Assembly (NCBI GenBank): GCA_023261185.1
Contig: JALRJN010000062.1
Location: 1-41,531 of the forward strand
DNA: 41,531 nucleotides
Direction: 5' to 3'
Origin: Porticoccus sp.
GTDB lineage: Bacteria > Pseudomonadota > Gammaproteobacteria > Pseudomonadales > Porticoccaceae
The notes beneath the pieces were generated by a model. The model was given only the letters and a program-made list of their open reading frames with translations. It did not search any database and was not told the origin of the DNA. Position 1 is the stretch's first letter, and each line of letters begins with the position of its first letter. Positions 6,332 through 40,541 of this stretch are shown one piece after another. The position numbers were made by a program, and so were the translations under genes.

Positions 6332-7498
6332 GTGTTAAACACTTTGAAGGGCGTCTTTGCGCGCCAAAACTATACGGCCGGTCTGCTACAACTTTTTATT
6401 GCACCACTGCTGATCTGTCTGGCGAGCCCGTCATTGGCAGGGTTGAAGCTGGAACACAGTGACACCCTTTGGATTAGCGTGGGTGGCGGCACACGCCTGC
6501 AACAAACCTCCCGGAACAATGATGCCGACGGCAGTGACGAGTTCACTATCAACAGCCTGCGGACTTACTGGGCTGGCCAGATACACGAATACATAAAGTG
6601 GAGTATTAACACGGAGAAATATGAAGGCGACTCCGTGATGATGATTGATGCCATTCTGCAATTTGAACTCGATCCTGCATTCAAACTCTGGGTAGGCCGC
6701 ACCCTGGTCCCCACCGACAGACCGGGACTGAATGGCCCCTACACGGGCATGAGCTGGAACCAATACCGTCAGCCACTATTTCCCGCAGACTACGATGGTC
6801 CTGCAGGGCGACTCGGCCGCAGCGAAGGTGCTGTGGTATTTGGCCAACTGGATAAACTGCAATACCTGGCAGGGATCTTTGAAGGCACCGACGATTATGG
6901 CAACGACGATGACAACCTGCTGTATGCCGCACGCTTTGCCTACAATTTCAAGAATGTTGAGCCGCTGGTGGGTTACTACACTGCCGCCACACACTTTGGT
7001 AAGGCTGGCGATATTCTGACAGCCGCCGTCACGGTGCAAAGTCAGAAGGATAGCAGTGGCAGTGAAATTGACCCCGGTGATTTCTTTGGCTATGCCTTCG
7101 ATGTGTTTTCCGAAACCGTGCTGGATAACAATGCTGTACTGACACTGGAGACGGGTTACAAGAATATGGATGGCGACCGAACGTGGGCCTCGCCACCCAC
7201 AGATGGGCTGGAGGAGTGCTTCTGTCTGTTTGAAGGGGACTCGTACTATGCTACCGCTGGCTACCTGTTTGCCAAGAAAATCGGTCCGGGGCAATTCCAA
7301 CCCTATGTCCGCTATATGAAAAATGACCCAGTGGATGCGGACACCAGCGACACCACTGAGTGGGGACTGAACTACGTGATCAACGGTTATAAAGCCAGCG
7401 TCAACCTGCATTACGTAACCGGCGATGCCAATGCACTGGGTTATCCGGGTAGTGATACCGACATTGTTTCAATGGGTGTCATTCTACAGTACTACTAA
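6332..7498 (+). CDS. Outer-membrane porin, phosphate-selective porin-like beta barrel
   Basis: A 388-residue protein with a signal peptide (hydrophobic LLQLFIAPLLICLASPSLA, cleavage near residue 36) and a sequence of alternating amphipathic strands ending in the aromatic VILQYY typical of outer-membrane barrels. Segments such as INTEKYEGDSVMMIDAILQFELDPAFKLWVGR recall OprP/OprO-type porins. Two cysteines (EECFC) sit in one presumed extracellular loop, which is uncommon for porins. Substrate unknown. The start is GTG 6332 with an AAGGGGTGG Shine-Dalgarno region. A TATACT hexamer at 6283-6288 may be its -10 box. Two stem-loops follow the stop codon. Confidence 0.82.
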   Translation: MLNTLKGVFARQNYTAGLLQLFIAPLLICLASPSLAGLKLEHSDTLWISVGGGTRLQQTSRNNDADGSDEFTINSLRTYWAGQIHEYIKWSINTEKYEGDSVMMIDAILQFELDPAFKLWVGRTLVPTDRPGLNGPYTGMSWNQYRQPLFPADYDGPAGRLGRSEGAVVFGQLDKLQYLAGIFEGTDDYGNDDDNLLYAARFAYNFKNVEPLVGYYTAATHFGKAGDILTAAVTVQSQKDSSGSEIDPGDFFGYAFDVFSETVLDNNAVLTLETGYKNMDGDRTWASPPTDGLEECFCLFEGDSYYATAGYLFAKKIGPGQFQPYVRYMKNDPVDADTSDTTEWGLNYVINGYKASVNLHYVTGDANALGYPGSDTDIVSMGVILQYY

Positions 7499-7508
7499 AA
7501 CGCAAAAC

Positions 7509-7535
7509 GGGGGTTGAGCCTGCCGCTCAACCCCC
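7509..7535. terminator. Strong 11-bp stem-loop; terminator for the minus-strand slyD-like gene
   Basis: GGGGGTTGAGC (7509-7519), a 5-base loop, and GCTCAACCCCC (7525-7535) form a perfect stem. Read on the minus strand it is followed by CGTTTTGCGTTTT, giving a T-rich tail downstream of the FKBP gene that ends at 7566. It also lies 10 bases after the porin stop on the plus strand. Confidence 0.75.
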
Positions 7536-7543
7536 GCCATTTC

Positions 7544-7566
7544 CGGCACCAGTGCCGTTATTTTTT
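7544..7566 (+). terminator. Intrinsic terminator of the porin gene
   Basis: CGGCA-CCAG-TGCCG (7544-7557) is a short GC stem followed directly by TTATTTTTT on the plus strand. With the 7509-7535 stem it makes a tandem pair between convergent genes. Confidence 0.7.
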
Positions 7567-8048
7567 CACTTCCCGCAGCCCTTGTCCCCATGAACATGGC
7601 CGTGGTCGCGCTCTTCCTGCGTTGATTCACGCACATCCACAATTTCCACCTCAAAGGTCAGAGTCTTACCCGCTAAAGGGTGGTTGATGTCGATATCCGC
7701 ATTGAACTTGCCTACCTTGAGGATAGTCACCGGGCGCAAACCTTCTTTGGTACGCAGGGGAACCGTCATGCCAGGCTCCAGCTTGCCTTCATAATGCAGG
7801 TTTTTCAGCCCCACACGCATTTCGTTGTCAGTCAACAATCTTCCATAGGCCATTTCAGGCGGCAGGGTAATGCTGTACTTGTCTCCCGGCTCCTTGCCCA
7901 GCATGGAGGCTTCGAGCGGTTCAATCATATTCCGGTAGCCGCAAATAAAGGTCGCAGCTTCCTCATTCTGGGAAGTCTCGACGACTTCGCCATTTTCGTC
8001 AGTCATGGTGTAGTGGAAAGCCACCACAGCATTGTCTTGTACTTTCAT
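7566..8048 (-). CDS. slyD: FKBP-type peptidyl-prolyl cis-trans isomerase, SlyD-like
   Basis: A 160-residue SlyD-type protein: an FKBP domain interrupted by the insert-in-flap chaperone domain. It shows NAVVAFHYTMTDENGEVVETS at the N-terminus, FICGYRNMIEPLEASMLG (the GxxxxIxGLExAL-like segment), MAYG, the insert domain about residues 72-128, and INHPLAGKTLTFEVEIV, the closing FKBP signature. The C-terminal tail is short but metal-binding in character (HGHVHGDKGCGK), much shorter than in E. coli SlyD. SlyD family members catalyse prolyl isomerisation in the cytoplasm and can bind nickel. The FKBP active-site aromatic positions are not fully canonical, so the catalytic rate cannot be judged. It is the last gene of the minus-strand run. 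Confidence 0.88.
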   Translation of the reverse strand: MKVQDNAVVAFHYTMTDENGEVVETSQNEEAATFICGYRNMIEPLEASMLGKEPGDKYSITLPPEMAYGRLLTDNEMRVGLKNLHYEGKLEPGMTVPLRTKEGLRPVTILKVGKFNADIDINHPLAGKTLTFEVEIVDVRESTQEERDHGHVHGDKGCGK

Positions 8049-8100
8049 AACGTCAGTAATCCTGGATCGGCAAATCGGCGCACATTATGGTGGCCTGTGA

Positions 8101-8889
8101 CTAGGCTGGCAAGACCTGGTAAAAACCGTTAGAGATACTGACGGTCAACGGCATATCAAACAGCGACGACAGATGATTGTCAGTCAGCAGGTCGGCTTTG
8201 TAGCCATCGGCCACCACACTGCCATTGGCGATAAAGACCACACGCTCAATTTCAGGGGGAATCTCGTGAATATGATGGGTAGCGAGAAGAATGGTTTTTC
8301 CACGCTGTAACAGTTCGCGGATGCCATTGAGATAATGATAGGTGGCATTCAGATCAAGCCCGCTGGTGGGCTCATCGAGAATCAGATGCTCAGGATTGTG
8401 AATTAGAGCGCGACCGAGCAAACAGCGGCGCTGCTGACCCGTGGACATCTGCTTGTAGGGTCGTCCCGCCAAGTCGGAGATTCCCAACTCTTCCAGCACC
8501 GCCCTGCCCCGGGTCAATTGCTCGTCCGTTACATCCTGATAATGAAACAGGCCAATGGAGTTGTGCAGACCAGACACCACCACACCGAGCCCACTAACAT
8601 CCGGCACAAAACCCTGTTGCAGGTCGGCGGACACCAGGCCGATTTTTTCCCTCAATTCCCAGAGTATGGGGCGATCATGGCCCAGGATTCGCACGTGGGA
8701 CTCATCATTTACCACCGGGTACAGCTCACGGGTCAGCAGTTTAAGTAAGGTGCTTTTACCGGCGCCATTGGGCCCGATAATGGCCGTGCTCTGCCCCTGC
8801 TCTACCGACAGTGAAAAGCCATCGAAGACTTTTTTATTGTCGCGGTAAACCGTGGCGTTATGAATATCAAGAAGCCTGGGTATTTTCAT
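8101..8889 (-). CDS. ABC transporter ATP-binding protein without a partner permease nearby
   Basis: A 262-residue single nucleotide-binding domain. Walker A is GPNGAGKST (about residues 39-47), the Q-loop region is VSADLQQGF, the ABC signature is MSTGQQRR, Walker B is HLILDEPTSGLD, and the switch His is in LLATHHIHEI. The signature (STGQQ instead of LSGGQ) resembles the ModF/YlmA subgroup of ABC ATPases. No membrane permease or binding protein is next to it, so its partner is elsewhere or it acts alone. It lies 38 bases after lipA on the same strand and may be part of that transcript. Confidence 0.88.
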   Translation of the reverse strand: MKIPRLLDIHNATVYRDNKKVFDGFSLSVEQGQSTAIIGPNGAGKSTLLKLLTRELYPVVNDESHVRILGHDRPILWELREKIGLVSADLQQGFVPDVSGLGVVVSGLHNSIGLFHYQDVTDEQLTRGRAVLEELGISDLAGRPYKQMSTGQQRRCLLGRALIHNPEHLILDEPTSGLDLNATYHYLNGIRELLQRGKTILLATHHIHEIPPEIERVVFIANGSVVADGYKADLLTDNHLSSLFDMPLTVSISNGFYQVLPA

Positions 8890-8927
8890 TTATTCTGATC
8901 CAGCGCTATACAGCAAAAGACTGCCGG

Positions 8928-9908
8928 CTATTTAACCTGTTCGCCCTTTGCCTGTTTGTCGGCATGGTAGGAAGACCGTACCAGCGGACCTGAAGCGACT
9001 TGGCTGAAACCGATACTGTGGCCATATTCCGCATACTCGGCAAATTCATCCGGGTGCACGAAGCGGTCTACGGGCAGATGGTTTTTGGAGGGCTGCAGGT
9101 ACTGCCCAACGGTCAACATATCGACATCGTGGGCGCGCAGATCATCCAGCGTGCGCATCAGCTCGTCCTTGGTTTCACCAAGCCCCACCATCAGTCCTGA
9201 CTTGGTAGGTACATTGGGGTTCAGGCGCTTGTATTCCTGTAGCAGTTTCAGGGACCAGGCATAGTTGGCACCCGGACGCGCCTCTCGGTACAGCCTTGGC
9301 ACGGTTTCCATATTGTGGTTGAAAACATCCGGTGGCGTGGCGGTAAGAATCTCCAGAGCAGGGTCCATACGACCACGAAAATCCGGTACCAGAATTTCGA
9401 GTTTCAGCGCCGGGCTGAGGAGTCGGGCTTCCCGAATACAATCGGCAAAATGCTGGGCACCACCATCGCGCAGATCATCACGGTCGACAGAAGTGATCAC
9501 CACGTAGCTTAACTGCATTTCGTGGATGGCCTTTGCCAGATGTGCCGGCTCTTCTGCATCCAGGGGGTTGGGTTTACCATGACCCACATCGCAGAACGGG
9601 CAGCGACGGGTACAGATTTCCCCCATAATCATGAAAGTTGCCGTACCGTGACTGAAACACTCGCTGAGATTGGGACAGGCTGCCTCTTCACATACCGTCG
9701 CCAGCTTGTTCTTGCGCAGTATGTTTTTGATTTCCTGTACCTTGGGGGACGATGAGACCCGGATACGCATCCAGTCGGGCTTGCGCTGGATTTCCTCTGT
9801 GGGGATCACCTTCACTGGGATCCGTTCCACCTTGTCCGCACTGCGTAGTTTCTCGCCCTGCTGAAGGCGGCGAGTGCGTTTTGGCGGAACTACGTTGGTA
9901 TCAGTCAT
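8928..9908 (-). CDS. lipA: Lipoyl synthase LipA
   Basis: A 326-residue radical SAM enzyme that inserts two sulfurs into octanoyl groups on lipoyl domains. The auxiliary cluster motif [12 protein letters not shown] (Cx4Cx5C) is followed by the radical-SAM motif CTRRCPFC (CxxxCxxC), and the C-terminus carries the conserved RSSY(H) segment whose Ser ligates the auxiliary cluster. All key residues are present and length is normal. The start was set at ATG 9908 ([10 protein letters not shown]); the frame is open to TTG 9926 but the extra residues are atypical. It follows lipB by 27 bases, so octanoyl transfer and sulfur insertion are encoded together. Confidence 0.96.
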
Positions 9909-28031: not shown

Positions 28032-28892
28032 TCAGGGCGCAGGCTTGGCCGGCAATTCGTAACTGACCTGATACTCATTGAAAAGCGGCGCCATCTGTCC
28101 ACCATCGATCATGGCCATCACCGCGTCATCCACTTTGTTGGTCAGCTCCGGAAAGGTAGCTTTAACAGCAATGCCGATATCCCAGGCGCGGCGGGGCCAG
28201 CTAACGATGCTTTCATCGGAGATAGCAAACTTCTGGCTATCCATCTGCCTATCTAAGTCGTCACCCGAAGCCTTTACAGACCATTCCACCTGACTGCGCA
28301 TACCGGCAACCGCATCAATCTCGCCCTTTTTCAAGGCGCTCACCGCCTCATCGATGGATAAAAAGTGCGTCACCTGCTCGACCAGGCGGCCGCGCAGTGC
28401 TGTGGTGAGGGTCAGGTCTGGAACACTGTCTACTTCAACGCCAACCTTGTGGTACATAAATGGTGCCAGGTTGACCAGCTCAGCCAGTTTTTCCGTGTTC
28501 CGCGCTACCGTCCATCGCTCTTTGTGATAGGGGGCAACAATACTGACCTTGTCATTATCGTAATTGATGTCGTAGGGAACGCGCAGCATGATATCTGCAA
28601 CGCCACCACCCATGTAATGACCCTTCCACACGGCATTGCGCAGGTCATCATCCAGGGTTTCATCCGCGGTCAGCCAAAACCAGGCTGGCTGCACACCCAA
28701 CTGCTCAGCAATCTTTTTGCCGACTTCAACGTCGATCCCCGCTGGCGAGCCTTTTTCCAGATAGGAATAGGGCGGAAAGTCCCGGTACACGGCGATACGT
28801 AGAAAACCAGTTTCCTGGATATCCTCCAGTGATCTCGCCTCAACAGAAACTACCGCAAATAGCAGAAGAAAAACCGCTAACAGGGACTTCAT
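28032..28892 (-). CDS. Quinoprotein-associated periplasmic binding protein (MxaJ/XoxJ-like)
   Basis: A 286-residue exported protein (signal KSLLAVFLLLFAVVSVEA) with the solute-binding-protein type 3 fold: LRIAVYRDFPPYSYLEKGSPAGIDVEVGKKIAEQLG at the start and KVGVEVDSVPDL, IDAVAGMRSQVEW later. The insertion DIMLRVPYDINYDNDKVSIVAPYHKERW is typical of the quinoprotein-dehydrogenase-associated group (MxaJ/XoxJ type), proposed to help maturation of PQQ dehydrogenases rather than to feed a transporter. The start at ATG 28892 follows AGGGG; it lies nine bases after the cytochrome gene and so is cotranscribed with it. No ABC permease is nearby, which fits the non-transport role. Confidence 0.82.
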   Translation of the reverse strand: MKSLLAVFLLLFAVVSVEARSLEDIQETGFLRIAVYRDFPPYSYLEKGSPAGIDVEVGKKIAEQLGVQPAWFWLTADETLDDDLRNAVWKGHYMGGGVADIMLRVPYDINYDNDKVSIVAPYHKERWTVARNTEKLAELVNLAPFMYHKVGVEVDSVPDLTLTTALRGRLVEQVTHFLSIDEAVSALKKGEIDAVAGMRSQVEWSVKASGDDLDRQMDSQKFAISDESIVSWPRRAWDIGIAVKATFPELTNKVDDAVMAMIDGGQMAPLFNEYQVSYELPAKPAP

Positions 28893-28901
28893 AGCCACCC
28901 C

Positions 28902-29631: not shown

Positions 29632-30303
29632 ATGTATGAAATACTTGTAGCAGATGATCACCCCCTCTACCGGGAAGCCATCATCAGCGTCATTCAACAT
29701 TCATTTCCCGATGCGATAACCCACGAAGCTGAAGATTTTGATGCGGCGCTGAAAATTGTCGAACAAAACGATCAGCTGGACCTGATCCTGCTCGACCTGA
29801 ACATGCCGGGAATGACAGACCTCAATGGGCTCATTCACCTACGCAATGAAGCGCCCGATATTCCCGTGGCGATCATTTCGGCAGAAGACAACCGGGATGT
29901 CGTGCTGCGCTCTGTTACCTATGGCGCGGTGGGGTTTATCAGCAAAGTTGCCAGTGGTGAAAACATTGGCGATGCCATTAAAAAGATCATGGCCGGACAG
30001 GTTTATCTGCCATCCGACATTGTTCGCAATACCAAAGCCACTTCACGGCCTGCACCGGAAGAACCCCAGGCATTTGACACCAAGCAAATTTCTTCCCTGA
30101 CCCGACGCCAACTGCTAGTGCTGGAAAGACTGTCCAAAGGTGAATCCAACAAGCAGATTGCCTATGAGCTGAATATTGCTGAAACCACGGTAAAAACCCA
30201 TGTGTCAGCTATTCTCAGCAAGCTGAATGTGCACAACCGCATGCAGGCCGTTCTCTGTGCCAGCAAGATCAACTTTGATCAATACCTGCATCGCCAGCAC
30301 TGA
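29632..30303 (+). CDS. LuxR-family response regulator, AgmR/ErbR (PedR1)-like
   Basis: A 223-residue NarL-type regulator. The receiver domain shows the acidic pair in LVADDHPLYREAI, phosphoacceptor Asp55 in LILLDLNMPG, and Lys105 in GFISKVASGE. The C-terminal LuxR helix-turn-helix spans about residues 150-215 (LTRRQLLVLERLSKGESNKQIAYELNIAETTVKTHVSAILSKLNV). Its N-terminus (MYEILVADDHPLYREAI) resembles AgmR/ErbR, which activates ethanol-oxidation genes in pseudomonads. Location between the PedF cytochrome and a sensor kinase supports control of the alcohol-oxidation genes; the DNA target is unknown. Confidence 0.85.
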   Translation: MYEILVADDHPLYREAIISVIQHSFPDAITHEAEDFDAALKIVEQNDQLDLILLDLNMPGMTDLNGLIHLRNEAPDIPVAIISAEDNRDVVLRSVTYGAVGFISKVASGENIGDAIKKIMAGQVYLPSDIVRNTKATSRPAPEEPQAFDTKQISSLTRRQLLVLERLSKGESNKQIAYELNIAETTVKTHVSAILSKLNVHNRMQAVLCASKINFDQYLHRQH

Positions 30304-30323: not shown

Positions 30324-32996
30324 CTAAATGGATTTTTTGGGAGCGCCCTGAAACAGGTGCTGCAACATCACTTTTAACTTGTGAAGCTTGATGGGTTTGT
30401 TCAGCAGATGGTACCCGGACTTCCTGACCTTCTGTTTCAATTCCTGTGAGTAGTTCGCGGTAATCATCAGCGTGGGAACCGCCTGCCCTAACTGCTGGTG
30501 CAGGGCCTCCACCGCATCAATACCCGTTGCGCCATCATCTAAGTGATAGTCGGCAATAAACAGGTCAGGCATAGCCTCGCGCAACGCTTCCACATCTATA
30601 TCATCGAGACCGGTGGCCGTCATTACCTCACACCCCCACCCCTGCAACAGCACTTCCATACCCTGGCAAATACTGACATCGTTATCGATAACAAGAATGC
30701 GCTTACCCTGGAGGGCACTGCCCTGCTCTTCCGGGTGAGTGGATACCCTGGCAGGCGTTGGAACCTGACGTTCGCCATAGGGCACCAGAATAGAGAACAC
30801 GGACCCCCGCCCAGGCTCGGAATGGACATCTACCGGGTGCCCGAGAATGCGAGAAATCTTATCGACAATCGCCAGCCCCAACCCAAGGCCATTAGTGCTT
30901 CGACGTTTGTTGGAAGGCAGCCGCTTGAACTCCAGAAAAATTTCTTCCAGCTGCTCTGCGGGAATGCCAATACCGGAATCCCAGACCTGCATCAGCAACC
31001 CCTCGGGGCGACGCCGACAACCCAGCAGGATATCGCCGCTGTCGGTGTAGCGGATGGCATTAGAAAGGAAGTTTCTCAATATCCGCGCCAGCAGCTGACG
31101 GTCGGTGAGAATGGTCACTGACGAAGGCACAAAACGGAAATTAAGCTGACTTCTCTCCGCCTGCTGGTGGAATTCATTGGCCAGATTCTCCAGCATCACA
31201 CCACAGTCAAAGGGTGCCAGGTCTGGCGTGACCACACCGGCATCCAGCTTGGAAATATCAATCAGGGTGCTGACCAGGCTCTCCACATCTGCCATGGAGT
31301 AATTCAGAGATTCCAATAACTTGCTGGCGCCGTCTGGCAACTGGTATTCCTGTAGGGCACTGGCAAATAATTTAGCGGCACTCATGGGCTGCAGCAGATC
31401 ATGGCTGACGGCCGCCAGGAATTTAGTCTTGGCAATATTGGCAATTTCCGCCTCACGCTTGGCCTCAAACAGCCGGGTTTCAGCCTCTTGACGCTCCGTC
31501 ACCTCCAGGCGCAACTGCTGGTTCAGCTCGGTCAATTCCTTGGTGCGTTCAAGCACCCGCTTTTCCATGTGTCGATACGCCTGATTGAGTGCCTCGGAGG
31601 TCAGTCGTTGCTGGGTGACGTCCTGCTCCAGGGCAAAGAAACCGGCCACCTGACCATTGCTGTCAAAATTGGGCACATAGGTTTTCAGAACGTATTTACT
31701 GCCACCAGGCAATTGCTGCTCAATTTCAAACACCACGCGCTGGCCGCCCAAGGTTCGCTCCAGGTATTCCCTGTGGCGTGCAAACTCTTCCGGGCCCAGC
31801 AATTGCGCCATGGATTTCTGATCAATCTCATCCCGGGATTGCTTGAACCATTCCTCAAAGGCACGGTTGGTAAAGTTGTAATTGAGGTCCCTGTCGATAT
31901 AGGAAATCAGCGCCGGCATGGCATCGGTCACCAGGCGAATGCGATGCTCACTGGCCCGCAGTGCCTCTTCATACTGGCGCTGTTCGGTGATATCCGTATA
32001 GGTCACTACGATCGCCCCGGTACCGGTATTGTGGCTTTCGATTTCCATAATGGTGCCGTTATCCAGCGCCTGTTCGAGACGGATATCCACCTGCCTCAAG
32101 GCGAGCCGTTGTACGGTTCTTGGGTCCACACGCCCCAGAGCCAACAGCGTTTGCAATGAGACGCCCTGCTCTGCCAAGTCAGGGGATATGCCTGCCAGAG
32201 ATATAAACTGCTCATTCCAGGCTTCCAATTGGTGTTCGCTGTTGAACAGCGCCACACCCTGCGACAGGTGGTCCAGGGTTGACTGGAGAATTTTTGATTT
32301 TTCTGCCAGCGCTCTTTCCCGCTTGGCTTCTTCACTGCGTTTAATGGCCGTGATATCGGTGAAAATCATCACCAGGCCACCCTCGCGGGACGGCCGCTCG
32401 GTGGCCTGCATCCAGCGACCATCCGTGAGACGGAAAATACCCAAGGTGGAAATCTCACTGCGACTGGTGAGTTTTTCTGATTGCGAGGTGGAGTAATCGA
32501 TAATGCCTGACTTGAAGATTTTCTTCTGCATTTCCGGCATAGACATGCCATCAATACCTGCTAGCCCTGCGTTTTCCCAGAGCTGATAAAACGCGGTATT
32601 GGCCAGCACGAAAATCCGCTGTTGATCGAACAGCACAAAGGCATCGGAGATACTTTCAATAGCATCGATCAGCAGCTGGTGTTTCTGCTCGGCCTCATTC
32701 TTCGCATGGAACAGATCCTGATTGACCCGCTCCAGATCTTTCAACGCCTGTTGTAACTGCTGGGTGCGTTCTTTGACCTTTTCAGACAGCACCACGGCAC
32801 TTTCAAAGCTGGCATAGGCGCCGTTGTCATTTGCCAGGCCCCGCTCAATTCGCTCAATCAAAACCCGGTTAATTTTCTTTAATTTTTCATTTTCGCGCAG
32901 CAGCGATTCCATACTCGGCGGATCATCGCTACCGGCTCTCACAGACACAGGAGGCTGCTGGGCCTGTATTTGCATTTTTCCGGAACGGTTAGCCAT
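30324..32996 (-). CDS. nahK: Hybrid sensor histidine kinase with PAS domains (NahK/ErcS'-like)
   Basis: An 890-residue protein with no membrane segment, so probably cytoplasmic. Order: coiled coil (about 30-105), PAS-like domains (about 107-220, 235-340, 348-465), second coiled coil (about 468-520), H-box with His532 in AAVSHDLLQP, ATPase domain with N646, DSGIGI (673-678) and GLGLGL (703-708), and a C-terminal receiver with Asp816 and Lys867. The H-box and PAS layout match NahK/ErcS' of Pseudomonas. Its ATG overlaps the nosP stop by eight bases (ATGGCTAA), so the NO-sensor-type protein and its kinase are translationally coupled. It is convergent with the response regulator gene, 20 bases apart. 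Confidence 0.85.
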   Translation of the reverse strand: MANRSGKMQIQAQQPPVSVRAGSDDPPSMESLLRENEKLKKINRVLIERIERGLANDNGAYASFESAVVLSEKVKERTQQLQQALKDLERVNQDLFHAKNEAEQKHQLLIDAIESISDAFVLFDQQRIFVLANTAFYQLWENAGLAGIDGMSMPEMQKKIFKSGIIDYSTSQSEKLTSRSEISTLGIFRLTDGRWMQATERPSREGGLVMIFTDITAIKRSEEAKRERALAEKSKILQSTLDHLSQGVALFNSEHQLEAWNEQFISLAGISPDLAEQGVSLQTLLALGRVDPRTVQRLALRQVDIRLEQALDNGTIMEIESHNTGTGAIVVTYTDITEQRQYEEALRASEHRIRLVTDAMPALISYIDRDLNYNFTNRAFEEWFKQSRDEIDQKSMAQLLGPEEFARHREYLERTLGGQRVVFEIEQQLPGGSKYVLKTYVPNFDSNGQVAGFFALEQDVTQQRLTSEALNQAYRHMEKRVLERTKELTELNQQLRLEVTERQEAETRLFEAKREAEIANIAKTKFLAAVSHDLLQPMSAAKLFASALQEYQLPDGASKLLESLNYSMADVESLVSTLIDISKLDAGVVTPDLAPFDCGVMLENLANEFHQQAERSQLNFRFVPSSVTILTDRQLLARILRNFLSNAIRYTDSGDILLGCRRRPEGLLMQVWDSGIGIPAEQLEEIFLEFKRLPSNKRRSTNGLGLGLAIVDKISRILGHPVDVHSEPGRGSVFSILVPYGERQVPTPARVSTHPEEQGSALQGKRILVIDNDVSICQGMEVLLQGWGCEVMTATGLDDIDVEALREAMPDLFIADYHLDDGATGIDAVEALHQQLGQAVPTLMITANYSQELKQKVRKSGYHLLNKPIKLHKLKVMLQHLFQGAPKKSI

Positions 32997-34134
32997 TGGG
33001 CATACCTATCGCCACACCGGAAAAGGTCTGATTCACATGCCGGCCGTTATATTGCTCGCCGTAAGCATCAAAACCGATCACGTTGTAATCCTTGAGGAGA
33101 GCGGAAATATCATCGCGAATATCCAGCTGATCAATTTCAAGCTGGCGAAAAATACATTCGCAGGCAATCACCAGCTGCGGCTGTCCGACCTTTTTTTTCA
33201 GCTCTTCCAGAGTTTGCTTCAGGTGTTCGACAATATTTCCCCGCTGACAGGTAGACAGCACTACCCCCTCATCAATAGCACAGAAAAATGACAGGCTGAG
33301 GTCGTCGTTCACCTTCTGCAGGGAACGAACATGGAACTGATCGTGCAATTTCACCCCGATGGGGTTTAGGGCGAAGGTGTTGATACTCAAATCTTCAATC
33401 GGCACACCCACCACCTGGGAGTATTCCAGGGCAGCAGGTTCGGCGTTGAGCTCAAGTACGACTCTCTCCTCCGCATCGGCTGCGGTCACCACCAGTTTAT
33501 TGTCTTCCGGCGTGAGGTGATGGGTGGAGTACACCTCAAAGGGGCAATCGGTGTTGACCAGAATAATCACGGCCGCATTGCGGTAGAAACGGTCACCGCA
33601 GAACACCTGGGTATCCTTGAAAAACAGATCATCCCCGGCAGAGCCTCCCACTAGTGGAATATCCCCCAGGGAATCATTGAGGCTCTTGAGTACCAACTCT
33701 TCCCGGATGGAAAGACCATCGAGTAGCGAAAAAGCAAAGCTGTGCCCCTGCACAGGAAGCAATGCCTTTTGATTAAAGTTGAGCATCACCTGCTGTAACA
33801 GGGCGCTGGTGTCTGAAAAGGAAAAATGGTGCAGATTTTCGATCAGCGCCGCTTCCACGGCAAAGTGGGCTTTGGGGAGACTGAACCCGGTAATGCTGCC
33901 CTTGCAGGTACCCAGGGGCGTAATTTCTCCGGCGGTGGTACAGCCAATCAACATGGTGTCGCCAAAACGTCTCTTTAACGCCTCAGCCAGAGCCGGCAGA
34001 TCGTATTCCACAGAACAGAAGAAAATTACACACTCGGTCTGCTCCTGATAGAGGCCTTCATACAGCTCGTCGGCCACCACCTCCGGGTCATGGCTCAACG
34101 AATAGTGCCTGCGAATGACGTCGGCATTCGTCAT
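32989..34134 (-). CDS. nosP: FIST-domain sensor protein, NosP-like
   Basis: A 381-residue soluble protein with the FIST_N domain (IFFCSVEYDLPALAEALKRRFGDTMLIGCTTAGEI; LVGGSAGDDLFF) and a FIST_C domain (about 230-375, ending NGRHVNQTFSGVAIG). NosP proteins are FIST-domain hemoproteins that bind nitric oxide and inhibit an adjacent kinase. The His pair at 205-206 (VYSTHHLTP) is a candidate heme ligand, by position rather than by proof. The gene order nosP-nahK is the same as PA1975-PA1976 in Pseudomonas aeruginosa. A GGAG lies eight bases before the ATG. A FIST protein sensing another small ligand cannot be excluded. Confidence 0.82.
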   Translation of the reverse strand: MTNADVIRRHYSLSHDPEVVADELYEGLYQEQTECVIFFCSVEYDLPALAEALKRRFGDTMLIGCTTAGEITPLGTCKGSITGFSLPKAHFAVEAALIENLHHFSFSDTSALLQQVMLNFNQKALLPVQGHSFAFSLLDGLSIREELVLKSLNDSLGDIPLVGGSAGDDLFFKDTQVFCGDRFYRNAAVIILVNTDCPFEVYSTHHLTPEDNKLVVTAADAEERVVLELNAEPAALEYSQVVGVPIEDLSINTFALNPIGVKLHDQFHVRSLQKVNDDLSLSFFCAIDEGVVLSTCQRGNIVEHLKQTLEELKKKVGQPQLVIACECIFRQLEIDQLDIRDDISALLKDYNVIGFDAYGEQYNGRHVNQTFSGVAIGMPNG

Positions 34135-34294: not shown

Positions 34295-35815
34295 TTAGAA
34301 AAAACCTAGGGGATTAATATCGTAACTCACTAACAAATTCTTGGTTTGCTGGTAGTGATCCAGCATCATCTTGTGGTTCTCGCGACCCACACCGGACTTC
34401 TTGTAACCGCCGAAAGCAGCGTGTGCGGGATACATGTGATAACAGTTGGTCCACACACGGCCCGCCTGAATACCACGCCCCATGCGGTAAGCGCGATTGA
34501 TGTCGCGGGTCCAGACACCTGCTCCCAGACCAAACTCGGTGTCATTGGCAATGGCCAGTGCTTCCGCTTCGTCTTTAAAGGTAGTGATACCGAGGGTGGG
34601 TCCAAAAATTTCTTCCTGGAACACACGCATGGTGTTGTCACCTTTCAACAGCGTGGGCTGAACGTAATAGCCGCCTGCAAGGTCACCACCGAGCATGTTG
34701 CGTTTGCCGCCCATCAGGAACTCTGCATTTTCTGACTTGGCGACATCCATATAGGAGAGGACCTTATCCAATTGCTCCTGGGATGCCTGGGCACCAACCA
34801 TGGTATCGGTATCCAACGGGTTGCCCTGGATAATCTGTCCGGCACGGGCTAGCACACGCTCGATAAACTCTTCGTAAATGCTCTCTTGCACCAGAACACG
34901 TGACGGGCAGGTACAGACTTCACCCTGGTTGAAGAAGCCCAGCAACAGACCTTCAACGCACTTGCTGATAAAGCTCTCTTCCTGCTGCAGTACGTCTTCA
35001 AAATAGATGTTGGGGGATTTGCCGCCCAGCTCGACTGTGGAAGGAATAATGTTTTTCGCCGCATATTCCATGATCTTGGCACCGACCGGGGTAGAACCGG
35101 TGAAAGCGATCTTGGCAATGCGGGTATTGGTCGCCAATGCGGCACCGGCTTCGGCACCGAAACCGTTGACCACGTTGACCACGCCGGGTGGCAGCAGGTC
35201 ACCAATGGTTTCCATCAGTACCAGAATAGAAGCAGGGGTTTGCTCTGCGGGCTTCATCACTACGCAGTTACCAGCTGCCAGTGCAGGTGCCAGTTTCCAG
35301 GCTGCCATCAACAGCGGGAAATTCCAGGGAATGATCTGGCCAACTACACCCAGCGGCTCGTGGAAATGGTACGCCGCAGTATGCTCATCCAACTCAGCAG
35401 CAGTACCTTCCTGCGCACGGATACAGGCCGCAAAGTAGCGGAAATGATCCACCACCAGGGGAATGTCGGCGTTCAGCGTTTCACGCACGCTCTTGCCATT
35501 ATCCCAGGTTTCAGCCACAGCCAGTTTGTCCAGGTTCTGCTCGATACGGTCAGCGATTTTCAGCAGAAGATTGGAGCGCACAGTAACAGAGGATTTTCCC
35601 CAGGCGTCTTTTGCTGCGTGAGCGGCATCCAGTGCCGTTTCAATGTCCGCAGCTGAGGAGCGTGCGACTTCACAAAATACCTTACCCGTGACTGGCGAGG
35701 CATTTTCAAAATATTTGCCTTCTTTGGGCGCTACCCACTCACCCCCAATATAGTTCTCGTAACGAGACTTAAAAGAGACTGCAGCACCTTCGGTTCCCGG
35801 TTGCGCATAAATCAT
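34295..35815 (-). CDS. exaC: NAD-dependent aldehyde dehydrogenase, ExaC/AldB type
   Basis: A 506-residue cytosolic aldehyde dehydrogenase. Motifs: [31 protein letters not shown] (cofactor loop), general base Glu262 in VELGGKSPN, and catalytic Cys301 in [13 protein letters not shown]. The EVCTCPSR form, with a second Cys two residues on, is characteristic of the ExaC/AldB acetaldehyde dehydrogenase group. It oxidises acetaldehyde and similar aldehydes to acids with NAD+, the second step after the PQQ dehydrogenase. A GGAG lies six bases before ATG 35815. It appears monocistronic, with its own terminator and a palindrome upstream. Confidence 0.92.
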
Positions 35816-36087: not shown

Positions 36088-38232
36088 TTATTGTTTTAAA
36101 TCAATAACCTGAACAATATTCTCGGTTGACTGGCCACGTTTTTTTTGGTTGATCAACGGGGGACACAAATCATCATTGTTGTAATAAACAATGCACTCCA
36201 GGCACTGTATACATTCGTTGTAATCCACCTTGCCCTGCGGGGTGATCGCAGCAATTTCACATTTGTGTTTACAGAGCTGACAGGGACTGCCGCACTCACT
36301 GCGTCGGGTCAGCCATTCAAAGCGATGGAACCACCCCAGTATTGCCAGCCCAGCACCCAGGGGACACAGGTAGCGGCAGTAGGCCTTGTGCACAAATAGG
36401 CTCAGCACCAGCAAACCCACGGCGTAAAGAACGAACGGCCAGGAACGAACGAACACCAGGGTAATCGCTGTTTTGAACGGCTCCACTTCTGACAGTATTT
36501 CCGCCGCCGTCAACGAGTAGAAGGAGATACCCACCAGAAGTATCAGCACCACATATTTCACCAACCACAAACGGGTATGTACGCGGTAGGAAATTTTCCA
36601 CTGGCGTATATTGAGTTTTTTGGCGATACAGCTGGCCATTTCCTGCAACACACCGAACGGGCAGAGCCAGCCGCAAAACAGACCACGGCCAATGATGAAG
36701 AGAGAAATAAAGACATAGATCCAGAGAATGAACAGCATCGGATCGATCAGATAATCTGACCAGCGGAAGCCGGAAATCATCGCCTGGAATATGGTGAAAA
36801 TATTCACCACCGACAGCTGCCCCTGGGCGTACCACCCGATGAAAATCAGGGTAAACCAGAGAAAGCCCCAACGCAGGCGGTGAAAGAGTTTCGGGTAACG
36901 GCTGAGTCGGTGCTGGAAGACCATAATAGCCGTCAACAACACCAGGCTCAGAGACAACACTACCACCTCCCAGAAACGCCCCTTCCAGATAATCACCCAG
37001 GGCGCATCACGCTTCAGCTCATCGTCGACATTCTCGTTGTAGACAAAGAATGTGGCTGGCAACTGGTAGTTGGAGGGAAATGAAGCACTCAACGTTTCAA
37101 ATAACATGCCCCGGGAACGGCTGACAACCAGTGACAGCTCCCACGGTGCGCCGGGATCAAAGTCCGACTGGGATTTGATGCGGAAAATTTTGCTGGTGTC
37201 GAAGTTGCCCATATAGGGAGAGTTGACTTCGTCATAGTCATAGAAATTCATATCGCGAATTTCGATGGGCAGTTCCTGCTGGTGAACCGCGAGACGATCC
37301 GGCACAGAACCGGGCACAAAGTCCTCGCCGACAAAGCTGTAATCACCGTCGGCCATCACTGCTACCGCGTGATTGCCCGGCCCCAGCTCCCTAAGCAACC
37401 GCGCGTAGTCGGTTTCCCCGAGCAGGTTCTTGCCAATATCGGGCACGTTCAGGTAGCAGTAATAAAATTCGATAAAGATGCCATCGCCATTTTCATCAGC
37501 GACGTCGTTGAGGTTTTCGACGGCGGTGCCAGCAAATGCGGCGGCCACCTCATCGTGAGCAATACGTACATGCTGGATATAGCCGCGCTGCAACATCTCG
37601 TCCCAACTCAGGGGATGAAATTCCCCGGTTTTGACGGTGGCAATCGCCCTCGGCTCGAAACCTTCCAGGGTTTCACGGGCCACCTTCAGCGCGGACAGCA
37701 AAACTGTTTCGTTAACGGCAACCACAGAGGCGGTCGCCTTGGTAATGCCATCGATATAAACATTGGCCCCCGCCCGCTGTTTACCGACCTTGATATTGTC
37801 GGCCACAGAAAGCCCTTTGTACTGCTGCAAAAATTCCAGCAGAGGCGGTTCGCCGAGGCCGTGGAGAAAGATGGGTTCATGGTGCTTGAGCAACTTGACC
37901 CCTTTGAAAATGCCCTGGGTATCGATACCCACGAGCACATTGACAACCTCACCGGAAAAACCGGGAATCGCCACAAAATCATTGGATTCGAAGAGATAGC
38001 CGAGTAATGCCGCACCGCGGAACACCGGCCAGATACCCAGTGCGGTGTCTTTTTCACCCAGTTCACTGGCGGTGGGAAATAAGTCTCGCCAGCTTTCTGT
38101 CGCCTGCCAATTGGCACGCAATTCCTGGCTTTCCTCGTCGGGTGCCGCATGTACTGTAAACGCTGACAGAAGGGCGAAGATCAACAGCCCGGTCAGCCAT
38201 AGTGTGTGTGCCAACCCATTTTTCGCGAACAT
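36088..38232 (-). CDS. NosR/NirI-family membrane flavoprotein with [4Fe-4S] clusters
   Basis: A 714-residue protein with the full NosR architecture. A signal/anchor (LAHTLWLTGLLIFALLSAFTVHA) is followed by a periplasmic FMN-binding domain with an ApbE-type site DGITKATAS (flavinylated Thr probably 167, Lys in place of the usual Gly), about six membrane helices (415-630) with cytoplasmic CxxxCP motifs (Cys520/524, Cys619/623), and a ferredoxin tail with Cys647-651-654-658 and Cys674-677-680-690, enough for two [4Fe-4S] clusters. NosR moves electrons between the quinone pool and periplasmic nitrous oxide reductase. No nos gene is nearby; the gene follows the PQQ dehydrogenase, so an electron-transfer role there is inferred. 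The start at ATG 38232 has AAGGA eight bases upstream (ATG 38250 possible). Confidence 0.85.
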   Translation of the reverse strand: MFAKNGLAHTLWLTGLLIFALLSAFTVHAAPDEESQELRANWQATESWRDLFPTASELGEKDTALGIWPVFRGAALLGYLFESNDFVAIPGFSGEVVNVLVGIDTQGIFKGVKLLKHHEPIFLHGLGEPPLLEFLQQYKGLSVADNIKVGKQRAGANVYIDGITKATASVVAVNETVLLSALKVARETLEGFEPRAIATVKTGEFHPLSWDEMLQRGYIQHVRIAHDEVAAAFAGTAVENLNDVADENGDGIFIEFYYCYLNVPDIGKNLLGETDYARLLRELGPGNHAVAVMADGDYSFVGEDFVPGSVPDRLAVHQQELPIEIRDMNFYDYDEVNSPYMGNFDTSKIFRIKSQSDFDPGAPWELSLVVSRSRGMLFETLSASFPSNYQLPATFFVYNENVDDELKRDAPWVIIWKGRFWEVVVLSLSLVLLTAIMVFQHRLSRYPKLFHRLRWGFLWFTLIFIGWYAQGQLSVVNIFTIFQAMISGFRWSDYLIDPMLFILWIYVFISLFIIGRGLFCGWLCPFGVLQEMASCIAKKLNIRQWKISYRVHTRLWLVKYVVLILLVGISFYSLTAAEILSEVEPFKTAITLVFVRSWPFVLYAVGLLVLSLFVHKAYCRYLCPLGAGLAILGWFHRFEWLTRRSECGSPCQLCKHKCEIAAITPQGKVDYNECIQCLECIVYYNNDDLCPPLINQKKRGQSTENIVQVIDLKQ

Positions 38233-38300
38233 CCGTTCAATCCTTACCATCGCAGCAACCAGCGTGCGTATTTATTATCGGAATTCAGGTGGTAATGATT

Positions 38301-38355
38301 CGGCTTCTTAAGCCGTCAGGCAGACATCGGCCCGATGCACAAAGTACACCGGGCC
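38301..38355. other. Two hairpins between the PQQ dehydrogenase and NosR-like genes
   Basis: A 12-position stem pairs 38329-38340 with 38344-38355 around an AAA loop (GGCCCG/CGGGCC plus wobble pairs). A second, CGGCTT-CTT-AAGCCG, spans 38301-38315. Neither is followed by a T-tract on the minus strand. They sit in the 146-base gap and could stabilise the dehydrogenase mRNA while allowing limited readthrough. Confidence 0.5.
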
Positions 38356-38378
38356 TTTGCCACTACTGCTACGGAGAA

Positions 38379-40163
38379 TCAGGATTTAGGCAGTTTAAAG
38401 GCCCAAACAGTGCCGCCCTGGTTCAGGTAGTTGACGCGTTTGGCCACATCACCACCCCACAGAGGTACAGCACCACCCCAACCGGAGATAACGGCTACAT
38501 ACTGCTCACCGTCCTGTTCCCAGGTGATCGGGGAGCCAACGATGCCGGAACCAGTCTGGAACTTGTACAGCACCTTACCGGAGTTGGCGTCGAGGCCATA
38601 CAGGTAACCCTCAGGCGTACCGGTGAACACCAGACCACCGGCAGTGGTCAGCACACCACCCCAAAGAGGCGCGTTGTTTTTGAATTCCCACTTGATCTCA
38701 CCGGTTTTTGGATCAATGGCTTTCAGAGAACCAATGTGATCTTCAAAAATGGGCTTGATAGTGAAGCCGGCACCCAGGTAAGCGGCACCTTTCTTGTAGG
38801 AAATGGGCTCGTTCCAGATATCCATACCCCACTCGTTGGAGGGCACATAGAACAGGCCGGTGTCTTTGCTGAAGGCCATCGGCATCCAGTTTTTACCACC
38901 GAGGAAAGACGGAATGGCAAATACAGACTTACCTTTTTTGCCATCTTCGCTTTCAGCCGGGTTACCGGGACGATTTTCAGGCATCCAGATTGGCGCGCCT
39001 TTGTCATCCAGGCCGCTGGCCCAGTTGATGTTTTTCACGAAGGGAATACCGCGGATGAAGTCGCCATTGGTGCGATTCAGCACGTAGAAATAACCGTTGC
39101 GGTCAGCGGTAGCCGCAGCCTTCACAGTTTTTCCGCCATCCTTGTAGTCGAAAGGAATCAGCTCGTTGACGCCATCGTAGTCCCAGCCATCGTGGGGCGT
39201 GGTCTGGAAGTGCCAGGCGATTTTACCGGTATCGGCATCAATCGCGACGCGGGAAGACGTGTAGAGGTTGTTGCCTGGACGGGTGTGGGAGTTCCACGGT
39301 GCCGGGTTACCAGTACCCACATAAATCAGGTTGGTTTCCGGATCATAAGTACCACCGTTCCAGGTTGCACCACCGCCCTGCTTCCAGAGATCGCCAGGCC
39401 AGGTTTTACCGGCTTCACCACCGGTAATGCCGTTTTCCTTGCCGTTCAGGTAGCCCATGTGGCCTTCGATAACCGGGCGGGTCCAGACCAGCTCACCAGT
39501 TTTCGCGTTGCGGGCATCAACCTTACCGATGATACCGAATTCGCCACCGGAAACACCGGTAACCACCATGCCTTTAATGATCTGAGGTGCGGAGGTGAAA
39601 GAATAACCGGCTTTGTAGTCGGCAATTTTCTCTTTCCACACAACCTTGCCAGTTTTACGGTCCAAGGCCACCAGCTTGGCGTCCAGGGTGCCGAAAATCA
39701 CCAGGTTGTCATACAGAGCAGCACCACGGTTAATCACGTCACAGCAGGGCATGATGTTGTCGGGAAGACGCGCATCGTACTGCCACAGCTCCTCACCAGT
39801 GACACTGTCAATGGCAAACAAACGGGAATAGGAACCGGTAATGTACATCACGCCGTCTTTCACCAGAGGCTGTGATTCCTGACCGCGCTGCTTCTCGCCA
39901 CCGAGGGAAAATGCCCAGGCGGGACGCAATTCTTTAACGTTAGTTTTGTCGAGTTTTTTCAGCGGACTATAGCGCTGGGCTTTGGGGCCAAGGCCGTAGC
40001 TCACCACATCATTGGTGGTCGCCTGGTCATTAAGAATGTCGGCATCCGTTACCGGACTGAATGATGCAGCCTGAGCGCCAACTGCTACAGCACTGAACAG
40101 CGCCGCAGCCAGCGTTGAGTATGCGAACTGCTTATAGTTCGGTCTATGATTACGCAATTTCAT
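38379..40163 (-). CDS. PQQ-dependent alcohol dehydrogenase, lanthanide-type signature
   Basis: A 594-residue periplasmic quinoprotein with an eight-bladed propeller. The signal peptide is cleaved near GAQA-A (32/33). The vicinal disulfide is Cys140-Cys141 in [10 protein letters not shown]. Metal and PQQ ligands are visible: Glu208 (GVSGGEFG), Asn286 (GTGNPAPWN), catalytic Asp328 in [10 protein letters not shown]. Asp330, two residues after the catalytic Asp, is the extra ligand of lanthanide-dependent XoxF/PedH-type enzymes; calcium enzymes have a non-acidic residue there. There is no C-terminal cytochrome domain, so it is a type I enzyme. PedF and ExaC in the cluster favour ethanol-type substrates. 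ATG 40163 follows AGGAGC by eight bases. Confidence 0.93.
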
Positions 40164-40541
40164 CTCTAGAGCTCCTGTTTCTCTTATCTTTCTCAAATGC
40201 TTTTTATGCTTAGGCGCGATTATTTAAGTCCCCACACCATTTCTTATCTGGGAAACTAAATAATTTGAAAGTTAGGATTTCCCATACGACCAAGTATCTG
40301 CCTGCATATGGCTGCCAACAATGACACTTGGGAATGAACTAAGCTCGTCAATAAGTAGGACGACACCGACTGGATAAGAGGGTCAAATTTTTATCAAAAC
40401 GAGTCGCCAGGCACCCATAATCACTCTTGACCGCAAAACTAAGCATAGCCCACCCACAGGAAAAGGACGGGTAAAACGAACCACCACAAAGACGGCGAAT
40501 ATGGTAGATTGCCGGCGTTTTCACGGAGATAAAGACCAGAG
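40164..40541. promoter_or_regulatory. Divergent control region between the PQQ dehydrogenase and aguA
   Basis: A 378-base AT-rich gap without a gene. It contains inverted repeats GGGAAA (40250-40255) / TTTCCC (40278-40283) on the dehydrogenase side, and TCGTC (40345-40349) / GACGA (40359-40363). A TTGACC hexamer (40427-40432) faces aguA but no -10 follows at proper spacing. The length suggests regulated expression of the dehydrogenase. Confidence 0.4.

Follow-up and report, generated by a model that had tools for sequence, protein, structure and literature searches.

The question raised by this locus is why a NosR-type protein should be encoded directly downstream of a pyrroloquinoline quinone (PQQ)-dependent alcohol dehydrogenase (ADH), and what it does there. 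The locus lies in a 41,531-nt stretch of a Porticoccus sp. contig (JALRJN010000062.1, positions 1–41,531; assembly GCA_023261185.1, 89% complete), which as a whole is referred to below as the window. The protein, designated here NosR2, was found to belong to a clade separate from canonical NosR and to co-occur with PQQ alcohol oxidation; in most of the genomes that encode it, it replaces a SoxYZ-like carrier and a SoxH-like hydrolase. NosR2 is best explained as an electron-transfer protein of the inner membrane that specifically serves quinoprotein alcohol oxidation of the PedH/ExaF type.

NosR2 is distinct from canonical NosR

The initial annotation of the window had described a complete NosR-type protein downstream of, and on the same strand as, a quinoprotein ADH. 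This was borne out: the two genes are separated by 128 bp (38251–38378), and the protein matches the profiles FMN_bind (26.4 bits, residues 99–183; FMN, flavin mononucleotide) and Fer4_5 (51.6 bits). Thr173 lies within a flavinylation-type motif (D167-G-I-T-K-A-T173), and there are two CxxxCP motifs (C526/C530 and C625/C629) and eight C-terminal cysteines (653, 657, 660, 664, 680, 683, 686 and 696). A structure model (mean predicted local distance difference test score, pLDDT, 83) shows a flavin domain resembling RnfG, another domain that is rich in beta structure, and a helical core; Foldseek matched the N-terminal domain to RnfG chains and, more weakly, to NqrC, and gave no credible match for the remainder of the model. 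Covalent attachment of FMN to Thr173 by ApbE is predicted from the motif and from the presence of ApbE in the genome (C61).

In a FastTree phylogeny of 188 NosR-family entries from order, class and named genomes, the window protein fell into a clade of 79 entries with a support of 100. Genomic context had been scored by script, prior to tree building, from marker genes in flanks of approx. 1.5 to 10 kb per side, and the context calls depend on flank length. Within the clade 45 entries had an exa, pqq or ercA context, 34 had neither and none had a nos context, while outside it 100 of the 109 entries had a nos context, nine had neither and none had an exa context. A mixture-model tree of 76 entries agreed with the separate position of NosR2. 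Ten class matches read later were all placed outside the clade, and a fragment from genome G746 (G numbers denote genomes and L numbers loci) was placed inside it.

NosR2 resembles NosR in its full-length homology, FMN domain, CxxxCP motifs and eight-cysteine tail, but differs in its phylogenetic position, in having no nos operon and in its score with the NosR model NF046105, which remained below the cut-off of 1000 bits for the window protein (773.2), for a second copy in the same genome (582.7) and for the closest named relative (locus L145; 769.2). The redox motifs of NosR are present in a protein that stays below the model cut-off and outside the group of NosR proteins from nos operons, and whose genome gave no NosZ match. 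The flavinylation motif is DGx[TS]KATxS in NosR2 and DxxSGATVT in NosR, and NosR2 has G133 and F98 in place of P and Y. An alignment of 20 sequences, the window protein among them, shows no variation at Thr173 or at any of the 12 cysteines. Across the clade, every entry with a residue at the position concerned keeps the cysteines, and 99% keep Thr173; the cysteines are equally conserved (99–100%) inside and outside the clade. The diagnostic positions of NosR2 are K171 (87%) and S175 (99%), which outside the clade are G (96%) and T (100%). A single clade with such a motif appears to be new, as far as the open-licence literature that we searched shows.

As telling against a repurposed protein the initial annotation had named a nos operon in the genome together with a grouping inside canonical NosR, or else the lack of a conserved association with PQQ dehydrogenases; neither outcome was obtained. 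NosZ (TIGR04244) had no match at E ≤ 0.001 in the window genome, and in the family (37 genomes, including this one) none reached the model cut-off, with four weak matches below it. When NosZ, NosD, NosF and NosY were used as queries against the window, the sole match was that of NosF (26%) to an ATP-binding cassette ATPase at 8131–8874, 28 kb away; for nosL, which the annotation had also listed as absent, no search was made. An ordinary NosR left over from a broken nos operon was rejected on the missing NosZ match and the different clade. For the three clade members tested, the best NCBIfam match was the model "transcriptional regulator NosR", at scores under the cut-off; surveys of denitrification genes should leave proteins of this clade out.

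The second copy in the window genome (contig 91, G000:C91; 4860–7031 of L003) is 45–46% identical to NosR2. Genes for a UhpB/NarX-like histidine kinase and a response regulator come next on the same strand, a porin gene lies beside it, and no nos genes were seen among its neighbours. A third NosR-like group (511–537 aa; L014, L015, L016, L018 and L129), present in the genus and family of the window, matches well only in the membrane/ferredoxin half. A scan of viral contigs yielded no relative of NosR2.

Co-occurrence of NosR2 with PQQ alcohol oxidation

NosR2 was searched for genome-wide at E ≤ 1e-100, a threshold that misses divergent copies, and the ADH was called at E ≤ 1e-200 in the order sample. 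In that sample (390 genomes) the ADH was present in all 25 genomes with NosR2 and in 24 of the 365 others; in the class sample (369 genomes, overlapping with the first in, among the NosR2 genomes, G000 and G056) the figures were 7/7 and 7/362. NosR2 of G746 was found only on reading the ADH locus of this genome, without which the class figures are 6/6 and 8/363. Three genomes (G360, G671 and G746) were reassigned to the NosR2-positive set after placement on the tree, so that an earlier count of 24/24 against 25/366 is superseded. All Fisher p-values given here ignore kinship.

The association that the initial annotation had proposed to examine, together with a NosR tree, is therefore strongly conserved, and its view of a non-canonical NosR-family protein tied to PQQ alcohol oxidation has held. 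The same picture was obtained for named genomes, in which 46 NosR2 loci were counted (drawn from the best 80 of 583 matches, with L152, L154, L157 and L159 dropped as copies of other entries): 32 have an exa/pqq context, 22 with the ADH itself. The closest named relative among these 80 matches, from an Exilibacterium assembly (L145; 63% identity in the best segment), is encoded on one strand in the order c550, NosR2, ExaC, NosP, NahK. Several operon-like arrangements on one strand recur: (i) ExaC-NosR2-PqqB in Vibrio penaeicida, Grimontia, Enterovibrio and Shewanella hanedai, (ii) ADH-NosR2 in Alteromonas and Aestuariibacter, (iii) NosR2 with acetate CoA ligase (AcsA) in the Zhongshania group, and (iv) NosR2-ErcA in family f39 (two genomes).

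Two other settings were noted. Five Marinobacter-family genomes (L087, L090, L092, L093 and L094) encode NosR2 at a distance from exa genes. Downstream of it are genes for a TetR regulator and a pyridine nucleotide-disulfide oxidoreductase, and four of the five also have a sodium/proton exchanger (families read on L092). In L086 (4417–6696), L095, L098, L100 and L113 a TonB-dependent receptor, a porin and ExaC stand in line, divergent from NosR2; the receptor is a candidate for the uptake of PQQ or of a metal complex.

The initial annotation had called this branch of alcohol oxidation little-described, which is correct in so far as it does not mean undescribed. Meheust et al. (2021) reported clusters of NapH-like flavinylated proteins with ExaA in 172 genomes and advanced nearly the same idea (PMC8238504), so that both the gene pairing and the main idea of the annotation are already in print. 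As a Fer4_5 (PF12801) membrane protein with an FMN-binding domain, encoded near an ExaA-type enzyme, NosR2 is a member of that kind and shows the same gene pairing. These authors suggest that among NapH-like proteins as a whole the pairing arose several times (PMC8238504); in contrast, all 45 exa-context NosR-family entries in our tree, on which their sequences were not placed, belong to one clade.

The partner dehydrogenase is of the PedH/ExaF type

At its metal site the ADH of the window carries GWDYD, and it has the vicinal pair Cys140-Cys141, as PedH/ExaF-type enzymes do. A second Asp (DxD) is the mark of lanthanide-type enzymes, and by this motif the window enzyme is predicted to be of the lanthanide type. 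Its best match among solved structures was 6zcv/6zcw (917 bits), which we take to be PedH, while 1flg, presumably the calcium enzyme, scored 700 bits; the motif and these matches point to the PedH type, and a Ca-type ExaA was rejected as the partner. In 89 ADH stretches, some of them from the same genome, the Cys pair was always present, and the second position was D in 69 and S in 20. NosR2 occurred in 24 of the 39 genomes of the order sample with a D-type ADH and in one of the ten with the S-type only, the type having been assigned by motif at the loci read and by identity otherwise. As far as our searches of the open-licence literature show, the D-type ADH has not been reported before as the partner of NosR2. 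The ADH proteins of L273 (G412) and L291 (G162) are identical, though the genomes are assigned to different families; G162 (75% complete) may be contaminated.

NosR2 and SoxYZ/SoxH nearly exclude each other

Known PedH/ExaF clusters resemble that of the window in their dehydrogenase, but the latter carries NosR2 rather than genes for a SoxYZ-like carrier (TIGR04557) and a SoxH-like hydrolase (TIGR04558). In loci without NosR2 these two genes often lie between PedG and the ADH, and a 2026 review places their P. putida counterparts between pedG and pedH (PMC12997753). A whole-genome search of 63 genomes found SoxYZ above the cut-off in seven of the 32 genomes with NosR2 and in 30 of the 31 without it (p = 4e-10); that is, 25 genomes have NosR2 alone, 30 have SoxYZ alone, seven have both and one has neither. 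If G746 is counted as lacking NosR2, the figures become 6/31 and 31/32 (p = 7e-11). SoxH was above the cut-off in the same 37 genomes as SoxYZ.

The ADH loci gave the same result. SoxYZ and/or SoxH were present in six of 30 loci from NosR2-positive genomes (32 genomes, of which G005 has no such ADH and G352 was omitted as a near-copy of G314) and in 21 of 24 loci from NosR2-negative ones. In these 24 loci no NosR match was detected at E ≤ 1e-8; the loci of the other seven of the 31 genomes (G243, G287, G433, G465, G480, G601 and G716) were unread, and NosR2 copies elsewhere are possible. None of the 46 named NosR2 loci, 22 of them with the ADH, contained SoxYZ or SoxH.

The exchange can be followed among near relatives. 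G203 has NosR2 and no SoxYZ, while G230 and G276 have SoxYZ and no NosR2, and the ADHs concerned are only approx. 0.04 changes per column apart; further swapped settings of related ADHs were found in G440 versus G471 and in G429 versus its neighbours. Canonical NosR, compared in the same way in the order sample, bore no such relation to SoxYZ (7/16 and 20/33, p = 0.36), and the view that NosR proteins in general affect SoxYZ was rejected. These data show a pattern of replacement in most genomes, from which a shared function may be inferred. We found no report of this exclusion in the open-licence literature searched, and to that extent it is new; the 2026 review on the ped cluster uses none of the terms NosR, FMN, flavin, 4Fe-4S and iron-sulfur in its main text (PMC12997753).

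In L272 (G429, which has NosR2 and lacks SoxYZ) an apparent three-gene ABC transporter occupies the position between PedG and the ADH (6963–9296) instead of SoxYZ/SoxH; its SsuA-like binding protein was recognized by model, the permease and ATPase by eye.

Cytochrome c550 is retained

The initial annotation had suggested that NosR2 links quinoprotein or cytochrome c electrons to the membrane or, as an alternative, that it might return low-potential electrons to the cytoplasm. A scheme closely similar to the first was published by Meheust et al. (2021), who proposed that the flavoprotein takes electrons from ExaA to the respiratory chain, a step for which P. aeruginosa uses cytochrome c550 (PMC8238504). 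If NosR2 replaced c550, genomes with NosR2 should lack c550 in the ADH locus. This prediction failed: c550 was present in 26 of the 30 NosR2-positive loci and in 21 of the 24 NosR2-negative ones, and in L259, L202 and L145 it lies directly upstream of NosR2 on the same strand. NosR2 therefore does not replace c550 at the level of gene content, which is a new observation as far as the open-licence literature searched shows. It bears on the published model, in that the flavoprotein does not stand in place of c550 among the genomes examined; the systems described here differ in retaining c550 and in mostly lacking SoxYZ/SoxH.

The redox potentials point the same way. That of PQQ is about +90 mV. 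Electrons would have to pass from it to a flavin whose free form has a potential of −205 mV, although flavoprotein potentials vary widely (PMC5928378). Transfer by NosR2 of electrons from the quinoprotein ADH, or from its cytochrome, to the quinone pool is accordingly not supported as the annotation had it, and we regard it as unlikely in spite of its published standing and of the co-occurrence of NosR2 with the ADH, which it would explain. A flavin route could matter where c550 is missing, as in the flanks of five of the 22 named loci with both NosR2 and the ADH (three of Janthinobacterium and two others).

Proposed role of NosR2

We favor instead a role in the reductive upkeep of the quinoprotein, shared with SoxYZ/SoxH, to which we assign a probability of roughly 0.4, ahead of electron exit and of redox sensing. 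Three considerations lead to it. With c550 present, the ADH would have its normal acceptor; with FMN lying below PQQ, electron flow from the cell to the periplasm would be the more plausible direction; and the roles proposed for SoxYZ/SoxH in quinoprotein clusters are disulfide formation, cofactor stabilization, redox control and protection of PQQ from sulfur compounds (PMC12997753). NosR2, like NosR, would most likely take electrons from the cytoplasmic or quinol side through its [4Fe-4S] and CxxxCP centers to a covalently bound periplasmic FMN, and would then maintain the quinoprotein system by reduction, for example by clearing an over-oxidized or sulfur-modified PQQ or cysteine site, so that the ADH could keep feeding c550. 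In doing so it would stand in for the SoxYZ-like carrier and SoxH-like hydrolase (the "quinoprotein relay", PP_2677/PP_2678 of P. putida), which serve the same system and belong to other protein families with no FMN or Fe-S model match. ApbE, which would attach the FMN, is encoded in all 25 genomes with NosR2 and no SoxYZ, the window genome among them, although it is common in any case (seven of 14 control genomes). That these unrelated modules, one a flavin/Fe-S wire in the membrane and the other a thiol carrier and hydrolase in the periplasm, are non-homologous functional replacements, each providing an upkeep step needed by PedH/ExaF-type dehydrogenases, is a tentative proposal, which we hold less firmly than the upkeep role itself.

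PceC/RdhC of organohalide respiration offers a parallel, combining an FMN domain with a CxxxCP membrane core and having been proposed as electron donor to a periplasmic enzyme (PMC5928378); its partner enzyme is different, and the parallel drawn here is one of domain composition. If functional replacement is correct, catalysis by periplasmic quinoproteins involves a reductive maintenance step that has so far stayed hidden. The occurrence of an unrelated module mostly where SoxYZ/SoxH are absent joins the two modules in one question, testable by cross-complementation.

Several observations weigh against this interpretation. When kinship was taken into account on the ADH tree, seven independent pairs were obtained, of which approx. 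five changed in opposite ways and none in the same way (median p = 0.0625), so that the signal of exclusion is suggestive only. Both NosR2 and SoxYZ occur in seven genomes (G360, G396, G412, G445, G783, G825 and G746); in the first six the flanks of NosR2 contain no exa/pqq marker, while in G746 a NosR2-like fragment at a contig end lies beside the ADH together with SoxYZ/SoxH. G302 has neither module. In 11 of the 25 genomes with NosR2 and without SoxYZ, no exa/pqq marker was found in the flanks of NosR2. In G005 NosR2 lies near pqqB/C/E and another quinoprotein, and no PedH/ExaA-type ADH was found at E ≤ 1e-100; this 557-aa quinoprotein (L115) has WDYD and no vicinal Cys pair. Although its sequence has many unread positions, this argues for PQQ as the target in preference to the disulfide, and the view that NosR2 serves solely to maintain the vicinal disulfide was rejected on this ground. 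Moreover, the roles of the SoxYZ/SoxH pair are themselves at the stage of proposals (PMC12997753).

NosR2 might alternatively report the periplasmic redox state, or the state of the quinoprotein, to cytoplasmic histidine kinases and in this way control the ethanol regulon; a regulatory side is on record for canonical NosR as well. After the contig 91 copy and its kin in G005 (L115), the next genes on the same strand encode a histidine kinase and a response regulator. NosR2 of G413 and G462 is followed, again on the same strand, by an ErcA-like iron-dependent ADH and a hybrid kinase 38% identical to NahK of the window, and NosP/NahK genes occur in the window and, in several relatives, close to NosR2. 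The clade-wide Fe-S cysteines and flavin threonine are, however, more than a sensor needs, the exclusion of SoxYZ is left unexplained, and a kinase marker within 700 bp of NosR2 was found only in the L003/L115 pair, other kinase families not having been sought there. We therefore consider this role improbable and rank it below electron exit.

That NosR2 is merely an ordinary NosR spread with marine lineages and unlinked to alcohol oxidation would account for the 34 of 79 entries without exa/pqq markers in their flanks, but is very hard to reconcile with the absence of nos genes near all 79, with the coexistence of NosR2 and a canonical NosR in a nos operon elsewhere in the same genome (e.g. 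G056, G170, G202 and G422), with the co-occurrence of the ADH (25/25 against 24/365) and with the exa/pqq context of 32 of the 46 named loci.

Organization of the window locus

The features of the locus are listed in Table 1. The genes of the minus strand follow one another in the order ADH, NosR2, ExaC, NosP, NahK/ErcS-family kinase. The initial annotation had overlooked both ExaC, after NosR2, and c550/PedF, approx. 9 kb from the ADH.

Table 1. Genes and structures of the NosR2 locus in the window
Feature	Position	Strand	Characteristics
NosR2 (NosR-like), 720 aa	36088..38250	-	FMN-binding domain, second domain, helical membrane core with two CxxxCP, 8-Cys ferredoxin-like tail; NF046105 773.2 bits (cut-off 1000)
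PQQ alcohol dehydrogenase, PedH/ExaF type, 594 aa from ATG	38379..40163	-	TIGR03075 800.7 bits (cut-off 480); GWD328-Y-D330, Cys140-Cys141
Two stem-loops in the ADH/NosR2 gap, without T-tract	38302..38355	-	folding and terminator pattern scan
ExaC acetaldehyde dehydrogenase	34295..35815	-	NF050026 945.8 bits (cut-off 900)
NosP (FIST), nitric oxide-sensing family	32989..34134	-	NF041558 508.5 bits (cut-off 450)
NahK/ErcS-family hybrid histidine kinase	30324..32996	-	NF041832 515 bits (cut-off 400)
ErdR-like LuxR-type response regulator	29632..30303	+	NF041830 165.3 bits, below cut-off 390
Cytochrome c550 PedF/ExaB, 148 aa	28905..29348	-	TIGR04494 206.9 bits (cut-off 122)
PedG-like periplasmic substrate-binding protein, quinoprotein cluster	28035..28898	-	adjoins c550 here, c550/ADH in relatives; no NCBIfam model above cut-off

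The two stems without T-tracts that the initial annotation had placed between the ADH and NosR2 were confirmed as helices of 12 bp (38355–38329) and 5 bp (38314–38302). The fold of the whole gap has a z-score of −3.98, and the pattern scan listed no terminator-like site in it. These GC-rich hairpins could attenuate transcription or stabilize the messenger, leading to an excess of ADH over NosR2.

The reading frame of the ADH is also open from a TTG at 40196, upstream of its ATG. At the first ATG of NosR2 (38250) no clear ribosome-binding site was seen by eye, while Met7 (38232) is preceded by AAGG at a typical spacing and could be where translation really begins.

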